Source: Anaerolineae bacterium (GTDB lineage Bacteria; Chloroflexota; Anaerolineae; Promineifilales; Promineifilaceae). From it: a stretch of 64,000 nucleotides of DNA. Made by a program: the position numbers and the translations under genes. Where the stretch lies: the NCBI GenBank assembly GCA_020848035.1, contig JADLAX010000011.1, positions 25,188-89,187 on the forward strand, given 5' to 3'. This document shows, in pieces, positions 1 through 64,000 of this stretch. Positions within the stretch are counted from its first letter, which is position 1. Each line of letters opens with the position of its first letter. Below the pieces are notes generated by a model that was not told the origin of the DNA, did not search any database, and saw only the letters and a program-made list of their open reading frames with translations.

Positions 1-1161
1 CCCCACGCCGCAGATCTGGTTCCAGAAACGGCCGTTTCTCTCCCCCCCATCTCGCCTCAGCCTATCCCCGAACTGGAAATTGAACCGCCCCGCTTGCGGC
101 CGCGTCGCATGGTAACAATTGGCCTGCTGCTGGTGGGGTTGGTAACGGCCGTTTTTATTGGCTACCAGGCTTTTGGCAACACGCCTGCCCCTACCCCCAC
201 GCCCGAACCCTTTGCCGAAAGCCGCATCACCGATGATTGGCTGCAAAGCCGCCCGCTGCCCACGCCCCGGGCCAACATGGCGCTGGTGAGCAGCGGCCTG
301 AACCTCTACCTGATCGGTGGCGAAACGGCCGCTGGCGTCACCAACACCGTGGCCATTTTTAACACGCTGGACCTCATCTGGCGCGAAGGGGCAGCCAAGC
401 CAACGGCCGTTACCGAGATTACCGGCGCGGAGCTGTTTGGCGAAATTTATATCCCCGGCGGCAAACTGACCGATGGCCAGCCAACCAACGTGGTGGAAGT
501 GTACAGCCCGGCCAACAACAGCTGGCGCGTGGCTACGCCGCTGCCCACGGCCGTTTCCGGCGGTCTGGTTCTGTCCGACGGCAGTTTTTTGTACCTCTTT
601 GGCGGCTGGGACGGGCAGGATTATCTGGCCAACGCCTATCGTTTTGATCCGGCGGCCAACAGCTGGCAAATTTTGCCCGACATGGCCACCGCCCGCGCCT
701 TTGTCACCGGCGGCGTGGTGAAGGGGAATTTATACGTCGTGGGGGGGTATGATGGGGAACGGCCGTTAAGCGAATGTGCCTACTTTGCCGCCGCTGGCGA
801 CAGCCTGGACAGTGAAGGTCAGTGGCATCGCTGCGCCCCCATGCTGCTGCCGCGCGCCGGGGCAGGGGCTTCCGGCTTGCTCAACAAGCTGTACGTTTTT
901 GGCGGCGGTGCCTTTGGCCAGGAAGCTATTACCTACAGCGAGTCGTACAACCCCGACACCGACCAATGGTCCGTGGTCAACACGCCACCGCTCAGCGACG
1001 AGCCAAATTGGGCCAGCCTGGGCATTGCCAATGTCGAAATTCGGATTTATGCCGTGGGGGGGAAACGGGGCGAAGTGGTGACGGACACCACGTTCATCTA
1101 CCAGCCGCTGGCCTACCAGACCTACATTCCCATCGCTCCGGTTGAGGGCGGCAATCGGTAG
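1..1161 (+). CDS. Kelch-repeat membrane protein (5' end outside window)
   Basis: The frame is open from base 1 without a stop, so the gene probably begins left of the window; the TTG at 94 and ATG at 109 are internal candidates. A Pro-rich stretch is followed by one membrane segment (MVTIGLLLVGLVTAVFIGY, encoded from 109) and then a series of Kelch-type blades with recurring LYLIGG, LYLFGGWDG, LYVVGGYDG and LYVFGGG strands, suggesting a beta-propeller outside the membrane. The cytoplasmic part upstream is unseen; in this phylum such proteins may carry a kinase or zinc-finger domain there, but that is a guess. Function unknown; Kelch propellers usually bind proteins or glycans. Confidence 0.8.
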   Translation, partial: PHAADLVPETAVSLPPISPQPIPELEIEPPRLRPRRMVTIGLLLVGLVTAVFIGYQAFGNTPAPTPTPEPFAESRITDDWLQSRPLPTPRANMALVSSGLNLYLIGGETAAGVTNTVAIFNTLDLIWREGAAKPTAVTEITGAELFGEIYIPGGKLTDGQPTNVVEVYSPANNSWRVATPLPTAVSGGLVLSDGSFLYLFGGWDGQDYLANAYRFDPAANSWQILPDMATARAFVTGGVVKGNLYVVGGYDGERPLSECAYFAAAGDSLDSEGQWHRCAPMLLPRAGAGASGLLNKLYVFGGGAFGQEAITYSESYNPDTDQWSVVNTPPLSDEPNWASLGIANVEIRIYAVGGKRGEVVTDTTFIYQPLAYQTYIPIAPVEGGNR

Positions 1162-1204
1162 CCAATCGGCTCTCTCTGCCGATGTTTATGGTGTCATAAC
1201 CGCG

Positions 1205-1255
1205 TAGGCGGGTATCCATCGAGAATAGATTCCCGCCTTCGCGGGAATGACAATA
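1205..1255. repeat. REP-like hairpin (CCCGC..GCGGG family), copy 1
   Basis: A perfect 8-bp stem, ATTCCCGC (1229-1236) with GCGGGAAT (1241-1248) around a CTTC loop, is followed by GACAATAAAAA. The neighbouring bases also contain GGCGGGTATC. The translated minus strand reads FPRRRES, the signature of a widely dispersed bacterial intergenic repeat. It lies between the converging Kelch and EthD-like genes and could end transcription in either direction. A second copy is at 33966-33992. Confidence 0.7.
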
Positions 1256-1305
1256 AAAAATGCGTATTTCTCTTAGTATTCTCTATGCCCCGCTGTGGCT
1301 CAGAA

Positions 1306-1635
1306 TCAACTCCCTTCCGCCATACCTTCCAAAAAGGAATCGGCAAAAAACCAGGTAATGATTTTGGCCTCGGCCCAGGGGGTGAGGGCCGCAATCAGCT
1401 GCACGCCGATGGGCGTCACCATCGCCGCCTCGAAGCTGATACGCGAATCGAAGTACAGCTCAAACATGAGGTGGAAACGGGATTCGCCGCCGCCCGGTTT
1501 GTGGGAGATACGGCTCACTTCACGGCGAGCCAGGCCCGGCAGCTGTTCAGCCAGCGGCAGGTGCGTCTGGCTAAAAAACGCTTCCAGCGCGTCTTCATCA
1601 TCCACGCGGCGGTAGAGGGTGACAAATTTGTACAT
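1306..1635 (-). CDS. EthD-like dimeric alpha/beta-barrel protein
   Basis: A 109-residue protein starting MYKFVTLYRR. The N-terminal strand, the segment HLPLAEQLPGLARREVSRI and the later FHLMFELYFDS strand match the EthD/ferredoxin-like dimeric barrel family (usual length about 100 residues). EthD proteins are small accessory proteins or reductases of uncertain chemistry, first linked to ether degradation. It is the last gene of the minus-strand Ccm/cytochrome run, four bases after the cytochrome gene, so it is probably co-transcribed. The role here is unknown. Confidence 0.75.
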   Translation of the reverse strand: MYKFVTLYRRVDDEDALEAFFSQTHLPLAEQLPGLARREVSRISHKPGGGESRFHLMFELYFDSRISFEAAMVTPIGVQLIAALTPWAEAKIITWFFADSFLEGMAEGS

Positions 1636-1639
1636 CGAA

Positions 1640-62718: not shown

Positions 62719-62761
62719 AAAGTGGGAGCTCACTTTTCACTTATCGCTTTTTACTTTTCAC
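62704..62761. repeat. Word-hairpin, family A, copy near AhpD-like gene
   Basis: GAGAAGTGAAAAGTAAAAAGTG (62704-62725) mirrored by CACTTTTCACTTATCGCTTTTTACTTTTCACC (62731-62762). It contains the stop codon of the AhpD-like gene and ends 18 bases before the enoyl-CoA hydratase ATG. Confidence 0.9.
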
Positions 62762-62779
62762 CAAGAAACGGAGAAGTAG

Positions 62780-63571
62780 ATGAGTGAGTTGGTTCTAACA
62801 CAGCAGCGGGACACCATTTTTGAAATCATTTTGAATCGGCCGGACAAGCGCAATGCGATGAATGCGGAACTGGTGGCGGGGTTGGATACGGCCGTCCAAA
62901 CCGCCAACCGCACCCCCGGCATCCGCGCCGTCATCATTCGCGGTGAGGGTAAAGCGTTTTCCGCCGGGATTGACGTGAGTACGCTGCTGGGGCTGGCGCA
63001 AACGTATGGGCCGCACTGGCAGCAGCGCATGCGCCGCATTACCGATGATTTCCAGGCGGTGTTTACCCGGCTGGAGCGGTTGGAGCTGCCCACCATTGCC
63101 CTGCTGCACGGCTACTGCCTGGGGCTGGCCATGGAGCTGGCCCTGGCCTGCGACATCCGCATTGCCGCCGAGGGCATGCAAATGGGCCTGCCGGAAACGC
63201 GCCTGGGCATCATTCCCGACGTGGGCGGCACCACCCGACTGACCCGGCTGGTGGGTCCGGCGCGCGCCAAGGAGCTGATTTTCACCGGGCGGCATTTTGA
63301 CATGACGTATGCGGAACGCTGGGGCATTGTGAACACCGTCGTACCCGAAGACCAGCTGATGGCCAAGGCGGAAGCGCTGGTGGCAGAGCTCAACCAGGCC
63401 GCGCCGCTGGCGGTGGGCATGGCCAAGCGAGTCATCGACGGCCTCAGCGACATTGATCGTGGGCTGATGCTAGAGGGCTGGGCGCAAAGCCAGCTGATGA
63501 GCAGCGAGGATTTTTTGGAAGGGGCGCAAAGTTTTATGATGAAACGGCCGCCTCAATTCAAAGGAAAGTGA
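62780..63571 (+). CDS. Enoyl-CoA hydratase/isomerase family protein
   Basis: 263 residues. Crotonase fold with RPDKRNAMNAELVAGLD, oxyanion-hole region AFSAGIDVSTLLGL, second half of the oxyanion hole in LLHGYCLGLAMELALACDIRIA and GLPETRLGIIPDVGGTTRLTRLVG (family catalytic Glu position reads PETRLG). It probably hydrates or isomerises acyl-CoA. It abuts the patatin gene by a single base. Confidence 0.92.
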   Translation: MSELVLTQQRDTIFEIILNRPDKRNAMNAELVAGLDTAVQTANRTPGIRAVIIRGEGKAFSAGIDVSTLLGLAQTYGPHWQQRMRRITDDFQAVFTRLERLELPTIALLHGYCLGLAMELALACDIRIAAEGMQMGLPETRLGIIPDVGGTTRLTRLVGPARAKELIFTGRHFDMTYAERWGIVNTVVPEDQLMAKAEALVAELNQAAPLAVGMAKRVIDGLSDIDRGLMLEGWAQSQLMSSEDFLEGAQSFMMKRPPQFKGK

Positions 63572-63572
63572 C

Positions 63573-64000
63573 ATGAGAATTGGATTGGCTTTAGGCGGCG
63601 GTGGCGCACGAGGCGCGGCCCATATCGGTGTGTTGATGGAGCTGGAGCGGCTGGGCATTCGCCCCAACCTGATCACCGGCACCAGCATTGGTGGGCTGGT
63701 AGGGGCGCTGTATGCCGCCGGGCTTACTGGTGAGGATATAACCGACTGCTTTCGGCAGATCAACATTGGGTCGATGTATTCGTTTGCCGCCAGTTTGCCC
63801 GCGCTCACAGGCGTGACCAAGCTGGAGCAGCTGCTGGAATCGTATATCGGACGGCCGAAATTTTCTGAGCTAGGCATTCCGCTGTCGGTTGTCACATCGG
63901 ATTTGGTGGCACGGAAAGAGGTGATTTTGGACGAGGGGGATGTGATTACGGCCGTACTTGCCACCATCGCCATCCCTATCCTCTTTCCCCCCGTGGAGCG
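63573..64000 (+). CDS. Patatin-like phospholipase (3' end outside window)
   Basis: ATG at 63573 directly follows the preceding stop; 142 codons are visible and the frame stays open to the edge. RIGLALGGGGARGAAHIGVLMELE is the glycine-rich oxyanion loop and GTSIGG holds the nucleophile Ser (GxSxG). The catalytic Asp lies beyond the window. RssA/NTE-type bacterial patatins hydrolyse phospholipids or lysophospholipids in the cytosol. Confidence 0.9.
   Translation, partial: MRIGLALGGGGARGAAHIGVLMELERLGIRPNLITGTSIGGLVGALYAAGLTGEDITDCFRQINIGSMYSFAASLPALTGVTKLEQLLESYIGRPKFSELGIPLSVVTSDLVARKEVILDEGDVITAVLATIAIPILFPPVE

Follow-up and report, generated by a model that had tools for sequence, protein, structure and literature searches.

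A highly iterated palindrome with a CGGCCG core in one family of Chloroflexota, and a candidate methylase

Why HIP1 floods the genomes of cyanobacteria is an old open question, and HIP1 is one case from one phylum. The DNA analysed here, a stretch of 64,000 nucleotides from a Chloroflexota genome (the window), raises a similar question: what has spread the palindromic octamer ACGGCCGT through it? In this work, we describe what is likely a new HIP system, independent of HIP1 and with a likely methylase, which would make a second independent case.

Abundance and placement of the octamer

The initial annotation counted about 120 copies in 64 kb where chance, at about 58% GC, predicted about two, and described a HIP1-like highly iterated palindrome of HIP1-like density, enriched fifty-fold in genes and gaps. 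Exact counting bears this out: the window holds 124 copies (Table 1) at a GC content of 59.4%, for which independent letters predict about 1.8. With an order-3 Markov model of the window, which includes the octamer's own contribution, 6.2 copies are expected against the 124 observed. In 464 kb of the genome, where the octamer was masked in the Markov backgrounds, 803 copies were observed, and the expectation was 9.3, 13.4 and 15.3 at orders 1, 2 and 3, and 18.7 and 30.1 at orders 4 and 5. The excess is 53-fold over order 3 and 27-fold over order 5.

Table 1. Copies of ACGGCCGT in the window
Feature	Position	Strand	Remark
ACGGCCGT, 124 copies	28..63955	same on both strands	exact count; mean distance about 520 bases
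First copy of the window	28..35		exact position
Densest run, five copies	53237..53409		starts 53237, 53267, 53336, 53354, 53402
Last copy of the window	63948..63955		exact position

The whole draft genome of 7,652,511 bases contains 12,866 copies, i.e., 1,682 per Mb, and 64 copies of the reversed control TGCCGGCA; the genome-wide observed/expected ratio is far from one. A ratio near one, or equal enrichment of unrelated GC-rich palindromes, was what the initial annotation had set against its own reading. In the 464 kb, none of the other 207 palindromic octamers present has an observed/expected ratio above 3.3 (third-order Markov model), and the median of the 54 with six G/C letters, ACGGCCGT included, is 0.55. 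The passages on abundance in Elhai (2015; PMC4390886) give 500-2,500 copies per Mb for HIP1 and most alternate HIPs, and the density and excess found here amount to gross overrepresentation of this type.

Within the window, 105 of the 124 copies lie inside the 50 genes called by a simple codon-score caller written for this analysis, and 41 of these genes hold at least one copy; in the 464 kb, 685-686 copies fall within called genes and 118 outside. After shuffling of synonymous codons, 96.5 copies are expected in genes, so that the real number is in about sevenfold excess, and the three reading frames hold 78/16/2 copies against 368/220/97 in the real sequence. Since all three frames are used and the synonymous shuffles are exceeded sevenfold, the excess is not a codon effect. 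The order-1 observed/expected ratio is 99 in non-coding and 76 in coding DNA; relative to composition, enrichment in non-coding DNA equals that in coding DNA, and the octamer, like a HIP, occupies both and keeps to no single frame. Spacings are near random, so that no requirement for an octamer within a fixed distance is visible. One low-GC, foreign-looking stretch of at least 12.5 kb (L094:3501-16000) has no copy.

Variants that differ from ACGGCCGT in an outer letter occur at 2.9- and 3.8-fold their expectation and inner one-off variants at 0.3-0.8 of it; as in HIPs, deviations concentrate at the outer positions. The palindrome ACGATCGT occurs five times in the 464 kb.

Such a repeat could in principle result from base composition or codon use, or belong to a dispersed repeat: GC content is high genome-wide, and all CGGCCG taken together, octamers included, stand about fourfold over their order-2 expectation. 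This origin is hard to reconcile with the excesses over orders 3 and 5, the rarity of the reversed control, the sevenfold lower shuffles, or the arms beside the sites, which pair no more than expected (hairpins at the sites are thereby rejected). The composition, shuffle and reversed controls refute it, and we leave it practically no probability.

Distribution, outer pair and conservation

Among the Chloroflexota genomes searched, those with the repeat all belong to a single family, probably the Promineifilaceae. Around the CGGCCG core, the outer pair in 52 family genomes is A..T in 28, T..A in two and G..C in one; one family genome has TGCCGGCA in place of a CGGCCG-core octamer. The outer pair differs between genera, and the core is constant. 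The G..C octamer of G016 is the NotI site GCGGCCGC. Genus g5 has many CGGCCG cores and no outer pair, and core-only enrichment is found in g5, g4 and G019.

The sections of Elhai's paper on HIP1 (GCGATCGC) and the alternate HIPs of cyanobacteria (PMC4390886) offer several parallels: these too are GC-rich palindromes of similar density in coding and non-coding DNA, their outer letters are the most variable, other palindromes replace them in some lineages, they extend past eight letters in some genomes, and a solitary methylase is their candidate marker. However, the present repeat is not HIP1 proper. HIP1 has the core CGATCG and belongs to cyanobacteria, whereas ACGGCCGT has the core CGGCCG and belongs to Chloroflexota; the outer pair is G..C in HIP1 but usually A..T or T..A in the family studied. 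The initial annotation had noted that the sequence is other than HIP1 and knew of no description for the phylum; the literature searched contained no description of ACGGCCGT, nor of any HIP in Chloroflexota.

The dialects bear on a neutral drive, in which sites would arise and be restored through mismatch repair guided by methylation, or through biased conversion, and the cell would gain nothing from them (the ratchet of Elhai, or some variant). Such a drive would account for the enrichment across frames and non-coding DNA, the random-like spacing, the inner variants at or below expectation and the low-GC island free of sites, and the model, as set out by Elhai (PMC4390886), predicts accumulation wherever a suitable methylase meets repair. 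As published, the model requires the methylated first C of the core to be preceded by G, but in the 31 octamer genomes the preceding letter is A 28 times and T twice, and these outer A/T letters speak against the requirement. The drive survives only if another C, e.g., the inner one, is methylated, and the outer pair is then left unexplained; in addition, MutL fails as a discriminator, as 47 of the 52 genomes have it, whether they carry octamers or not. We regard a drive of this kind as unlikely.

Genus-specific dialects, together with the genome-wide density and the absence from the foreign-looking island, would also suit a DNA-uptake signal by which the octamer marks own-kind DNA for natural transformation. 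The known uptake sequences of Neisseria and Pasteurellaceae are not palindromes, and we consider this role very improbable.

Across species of the genus, the sites are preserved far better than neutral DNA is. In three species, 32/43, 51/71 and 43/45 sites (72-96%) are intact, and control octamers in fractions of 0.213, 0.183 and 0.420 (18-42%). Four-fold third positions ending in G or C are kept inside sites in 55/59, 53/60 and 74/74 cases, and outside sites in fractions of 0.63, 0.59 and 0.78. The aligned non-coding sites, which are few, are intact in 3/5, 3/5 and 3/4 cases. Comparison of related genomes, a step proposed in the initial annotation, yields both confinement to one family and conservation between species.

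A favoured context extends past the octamer, with A at -1 and G at -3 and -4, mirrored on the other side and present at non-coding sites too; the outer flanks evolve at the neutral rate. A halo of GC skew around the sites was first favoured as a mutational footprint made by repair, because the skew is weaker where a genome lacks the site. Near sites absent from G003, it is +0.05 in G003 versus +0.28 in G000 (the genome of the window), and near sites absent from G001, +0.06 in G001 versus +0.19 in G000. For sites only in G001, the values are +0.53 versus +0.16, and for sites only in G003, +0.42 versus +0.31; G002 gives no clear difference. Polarised changes within 16 bases of sites (5 gains and 14 losses of G; 16 gains and 3 losses of C) point to erosion. 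The context bias is strong around ACGGCCGT, whereas for HIP1, studied in 250 kb of a Trichormus plasmid, any skew halo more than 4 bases out is weak at most (+0.05 to +0.065 at 5-32 bases, 159 sites); around GATC in 50 kb of E. coli, no skew halo was seen.

A candidate methylase and its NotI-family neighbours

The initial annotation had proposed a search for a cognate methylase, and the search yields a candidate, X, an orphan methylase gene of G000 outside the window. Of the 31 octamer genomes, 29 carry X, as do 11 of the 21 genomes that lack the octamer; this association treats related genomes as independent, and its labels follow the X tree. X was not found in the octamer genomes G005 (78% complete) and G014 (95% complete). 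Eight of the 11 X-bearing genomes without octamer belong to genus g4, and g20 also has X without octamer. In g5, X is missing from all five genomes, one of which (G007) has no match to PF00145, PF01555 or PF02086. Within g17, X is present in the octamer genome G033 and absent from the flankless G019. Seven further X loci, found elsewhere, have no octamer on their contigs. X is neither strictly necessary nor sufficient for the octamer; it is the best candidate marker of it.

Other methylase families were searched as well. C5 methylases (PF00145) were rejected as a general cause, with matches in 16 of 45 genomes and none in the octamer genomes G003, G004, G012, G020, G021 and G025. D12 methylases (PF02086) were rejected too, occurring in 31 of 45 genomes, including the palindrome-free G011, G013 and G023; in G000, the strong match is a Dam-type copy (TIGR00571). 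For PF01555, the match that recurs among 11 genomes is X, seen in 10 of them; G000, G003, G020 and G021 also have several weak matches of about 380-480 residues, among which there may be a second shared methylase. In the X tree, both T..A genomes lie on the longest branches. Faster evolution of X at the change of outer pair was rejected, because the neighbouring nurA, a control in eight genomes, diverges similarly.

X is 656 residues long and contains the motif DPPY, which is commoner in adenine methylases. The CGGCCG core holds no adenine. The predicted structure (pLDDT 81.6) matches class I methylases generally, tRNA Trm11 and Trm14 first and CcrM among DNA methylases, and therefore leaves DNA and RNA substrates unseparated. 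The catalytic half resembles the DUF1156 anti-phage-associated methylases (NF042963; E 4e-21), but the score of 74.8 bits is below the cut-off of 1,000 bits, and the model has 960 positions. The neighbours of X scanned in G000 included no defence family.

A NotI-family endonuclease gene (PF12183) lies directly upstream of X in G016, G030 and G031, and likewise in six of the seven X loci whose contigs lack the octamer. One of these nucleases matches the solved NotI (3bvq, E 6e-4); for the G016 nuclease, no solved structure was found by sequence. PF12183 occurs in four of 52 family genomes, three of those beside X, and in none of 14 control genomes. X is homologous to these methylases encoded beside NotI-family endonucleases, being 56-62% identical to relatives with such a neighbour (L221, L224, L225, L228), and is of a different kind from the candidate HIP1 methylase. 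G016, moreover, accumulates the exact NotI site. However, among the 29 octamer genomes that encode X, 25 drafts are entirely free of PF12183 matches. G000 is one of the drafts without a match and lacks the NotI-type arrangement of endonuclease beside methylase, and X is accordingly solitary there.

Proposed mechanism and its implications

The recognition sites of NotI (GCGGCCGC) and EagI (CGGCCG) suggest that X methylates CGGCCG. NotI-family enzymes also pair with other methylases (on two plasmids, the partners are an adenine and a cytosine methylase), and the target site assigned to the NotI-family/X pair is to that extent tentative. We infer that X lost its restriction partner, that methylation drives accumulation and that a separate reader sets the outer pair. 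X would be an orphan DNA methylase, probably derived from one that partnered a NotI-type restriction enzyme lost in this lineage, and would likely methylate the core; another factor, sensitive to the outer base pair as well, would read the methylated sites and favour or restore intact ones; and methylation would thereby drive their accumulation. We give this combination of a HIP, an orphan X methylating CGGCCG and a second factor an even chance of being right. More tentative is the fuller account, in which an independent HIP system in a second phylum was born from nuclease loss, an orphan NotI-type methylase marks the core, a candidate reader sets the outer pair, and a change of reader converts thousands of sites genome-wide, from A..T into T..A or G..C, so that the dialect of the mark shifts from genus to genus. 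As to what maintains the sites, we tentatively favour a benefit of the marks over pure mutational drive; the marks might serve strand discrimination during repair, or let the cell recognise its own DNA.

Alternatively, selection could act for a protein that binds the octamer itself and serves to fold or segregate the chromosome, or acts in recombination or repair; methylation would in that case be incidental or lacking, and X a family-core gene travelling along. The outer pair would then be part of the unit and switch as a whole, sites would be conserved at synonymous positions, and the preferred context would extend past the octamer, as observed; G014 and G005, without X, and g4 and g20, with X but without octamers, fit as well. 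Yet the outer flanks change at the neutral rate, the core-only enrichment of g5, g4 and G019 needs a factor that sees CGGCCG alone, and the NotI-family neighbours of X would be coincidence. We hold such a protein to be a doubtful, if serious, alternative to methylation by X with a second reader.

The changing outer pair, the confinement to a single family, the conservation between species and the methylase with NotI-partner relatives go beyond the initial annotation. The natural variants within one family (three outer pairs, core-only genomes, one other palindrome and apparent losses) make the HIP question testable by comparison. In particular, comparison could identify the gene that varies along with the outer pair, decide if methylation is required, and tell if losing a restriction partner is what permits accumulation. 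The octamer is also a strong signature for assigning contigs to the family.

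Abundance and placement of the palindrome

The window contains exactly 124 copies of the palindromic octamer ACGGCCGT; the initial annotation was right in its count, in its chance estimate and in likening the density to that of HIP1, the highly iterated palindrome (HIP) of cyanobacteria. The 7.65-Mb draft genome holding the window (G000) contains 12,866 copies, against 64 of a control, the octamer reversed but not complemented. For composition tests, the window was combined with 20 sampled stretches of 20 kb (464 kb in all) and the motif was masked from the background; the 803 copies present compare with 9.3, 13.4, 15.3, 18.7 and 30.1 expected under Markov models of order 1, 2, 3, 4 and 5, respectively. 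Among the 208 palindromic octamers seen in these 464 kb, the next best is enriched 3.3-fold, and the median enrichment of the 54 with six G/C, ACGGCCGT included, is 0.55. The abundance is real and strong.

With genes called by our own simple codon-score caller, 685-686 copies lie inside genes and 118 outside. Reading frames of the sites number 368, 220 and 97, as against 78, 16 and 2 after within-gene shuffling of synonymous codons, which predicts 96.5 copies in genes where 686 are present. The density is 1.08 per kb outside called genes and 1.93 inside, a difference that goes with the lower GC outside; by order-1 enrichment (99 for non-coding and 76 for coding sites), non-coding sites are enriched as much. 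Spacings are near random (n=782, mean 539, CV 0.93), and those below 50 bases are rarer than expected (4.7% vs 8.9%). One 20-kb sample includes at least 12.5 kb without ACGGCCGT, at a GC of 0.42-0.49, which looks like an island that may have been acquired recently; a C5 DNA methylase gene lies within it. Three short stretches of the window have matches at many other places in G000 and in its three sister species, with the first matching on both strands; they probably represent families of dispersed repeats in this genus. The window also carries mutL, and MutL is present in 47 of the 52 family genomes.

Coordinates of features in and around the analysed sequences
Location	Strand	Feature
L088:9049-11019 (G000, contig other than the window's)	minus	X, candidate DNA methylase, 656 aa
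L094:3501-16000 (G000 contig C90, about 103,500-116,000)		stretch without ACGGCCGT
L091:10857-11657 (G000)		Dam-type adenine methylase (TIGR00571)
window:11715-13523		mutL
window:37365-37436		probable dispersed repeat
window:38332-38498		probable dispersed repeat
window:46908-47012		probable dispersed repeat
L232:11970-13175 (G016)		NurA-type nuclease gene
L230:12229-13437 (G004)		NurA-type nuclease gene
L217:3483-4688 (G033)		NurA-type nuclease gene
L290:5965-7789 (Thermus brockianus plasmid)		NotI-family endonuclease and adenine methylase genes
L291:37-2059 (Sedimenticola thiotaurini plasmid)		NotI-family endonuclease and cytosine methylase genes

Conservation and surroundings of the site

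DNA of three congeneric species was aligned with five G000 stretches, the window included. Intact sites number 32 of 43 in G001 (80% identity), 51 of 71 in G003 (78%) and 43 of 45 in G002 (87%), whereas for control octamers with six G/C the intact fractions are 0.213, 0.183 and 0.420, respectively. Among four-fold third positions that carry G or C, those inside sites are kept in 55/59, 53/60 and 74/74 cases in the three species, and those elsewhere at 0.63, 0.59 and 0.78. Non-coding sites, few of which were aligned, are intact in 3/5, 3/5 and 3/4 cases. Selection or directed restoration works on the site itself.

Only two one-off variants exceed chance (2.9- and 3.8-fold), both being changes of the outer letter; the third outer-letter variant stands at 0.8 and inner variants at 0.3-0.8. 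The wider context is also biased, in non-coding sites too: A is favoured at -1 and G at both -3 and -4, with the mirror image of this bias on the opposite flank. Each strand is G-rich 5' of the site and C-rich 3' of it over about 16 bases, and more faintly out to 64; in G000 the skew is +0.39, +0.31, +0.27, +0.08 and +0.05 outward (909 sites), and third codon positions within 16 bases give +0.46 on the left and -0.50 on the right. Among control palindromes, a small trend appears in GGCC only, which includes the sites. The arms beside the sites pair no more than expected. The rate of change in the flanks is close to neutral (0.62-0.75 vs 0.64 at four-fold positions), and polarised changes, few in number over 437 columns, wear down the skew.

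Outer-pair variants across the family

Among 400 Chloroflexota genomes drawn, the highest count in the 397 outside the family is 471 in 7.7 Mb, and a second set of 24 outside genomes has at most 287 copies each. The family is probably Promineifilaceae: the closest named relatives of X from the sister species are 'Candidatus Leptofilum' and Ardenticatenaceae records, and taxonomy places Leptofilum in Promineifilaceae.

By whole-genome counts and samples, 31 of the 52 family genomes carry an octamer NCGGCCGN', that is, CGGCCG with one favoured outer pair. This pair is A..T in 28, by a threshold of 400 per Mb that G032 passes marginally (437) and that G019 and G027 exceed yet are excluded, as their core is enriched whatever its flanks. 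For 17 genomes (G059-G075), the A..T assignment came from samples, which were short for G071 and G072 and had no readable letters for G070 and G075, these two being assigned like their genus-mates. The pair is T..A in G009 (7,668 copies) and G033 (9,414 copies), and G..C in G016 (48 copies in 40 kb, 39-fold), counts of GCGGCCGC coming from samples only. The skew recurs at T..A and G..C octamers, although in G009 and G016 the four bases nearest the site do not show it.

Among octamer-free genomes, the core alone is enriched in G007 (6.2) and G027 (16.1) of genus g5, in G019 (18.6), in G022 (2.9) and in seven genomes of genus g4 (1.4-2.5); its ratio is about 1 in G011, G023 and G029. In G013, CGGCCG is scarce (0.2) and TGCCGGCA is instead 30-fold over order 2 (41 copies in 38 kb; L119, L120, L186, L187), with 3,665 copies in the draft genome and a similar skew around it. 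These counts describe a mostly fixed core with a variable outer pair, which resembles the variation between HIP1 and TCGATCGA in cyanobacteria as PMC4390886 presents it. In a literature library with few subscription papers, combining terms for palindromes, or CGGCCG, with Chloroflexi or Promineifilaceae returned nothing on the subject, and the one whole-word occurrence of ACGGCCGT is in a paper on an unrelated topic. As far as searched, this is an undescribed HIP system, new and independent of HIP1.

A candidate methylase and its neighbours

X matches PF01555 in permuted order; its match to the DUF1156 model is far under that model's cut-off. At E 1e-10, X was detected in 40 of the 52 family genomes, several hits being fragments at contig ends: it is present in 29 of 31 octamer genomes (G005 and G014 gave no hit in this search) and in 11 of 21 octamer-free ones (Fisher p 0.0015, ignoring kinship), namely 8/8 in g4, 2/3 in genus g20, and G029 (a fragment). 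In G009, X is split over two overlapping reading frames (L287), by frameshift or assembly error. A NurA-type nuclease gene lies just 3' of X in three genomes, and homologues trail X at several more loci, G000 not among them.

A collection of species genomes holds 23 X loci, 16 with an octamer on the contig and seven without (three Desulfobacterales, one labelled Acidobacteria, three Chloroflexota). In six of the seven, a gene of the NotI endonuclease family (PF12183) sits immediately upstream of X, in the same orientation. Five of these match at E 1.6e-12 to 3.9e-61, one of them truncated where its contig ends and another spread over two frames; the sixth, HSG9, matches at E 2e-5, and its protein matches the solved NotI structure 3bvq (E 6e-4). 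At the seventh locus, L234, two nuclease queries revealed no NotI-family nuclease. Of the octamer loci, 12 have sequence upstream of X, and 2 of these carry PF12183 there (p ~0.006 against 6/7, ignoring kinship): G030 (E 1.3e-52) and G016 (E 5.5e-11), whose octamer is the NotI site and whose nuclease matched none of the solved structures. Across the family, four of the 52 genomes have PF12183, adjoining X in G016, G030 and G031 and elsewhere in G017; the same search did not find it in G000. X is thus of a kind that pairs with NotI-family endonucleases and is solitary in most octamer genomes, which parallels the solitary methylases of HIP1. Where other lineages keep an intact pair, the palindrome has not accumulated; G016, G030 and G031 show that the partner does not forbid accumulation.

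From this pattern, which is what the sequences give directly, we infer every link of the mechanism favoured here. X, or a stand-in, would methylate CGGCCG, and a second factor would read the methyl mark together with one outer pair. Dense marks may benefit the cell, either by letting repair tell the strands apart or by serving self-recognition; alternatively, repair may restore the sites. A change of reader would change the outer pair. The Elhai model, as stated in PMC4390886, requires the core's first C, the methylated one, to follow a G; A..T and T..A octamers do not agree with that version of the model. X gives a testable enzyme candidate for the new HIP system.

G000 also encodes a Dam-type adenine methylase, and GATC stands there at 0.66 of expectation. 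On two plasmids from other bacteria, NotI-family endonuclease genes are paired with an adenine and a cytosine methylase, respectively, so members of this nuclease family have paired with more than one kind of methylase.
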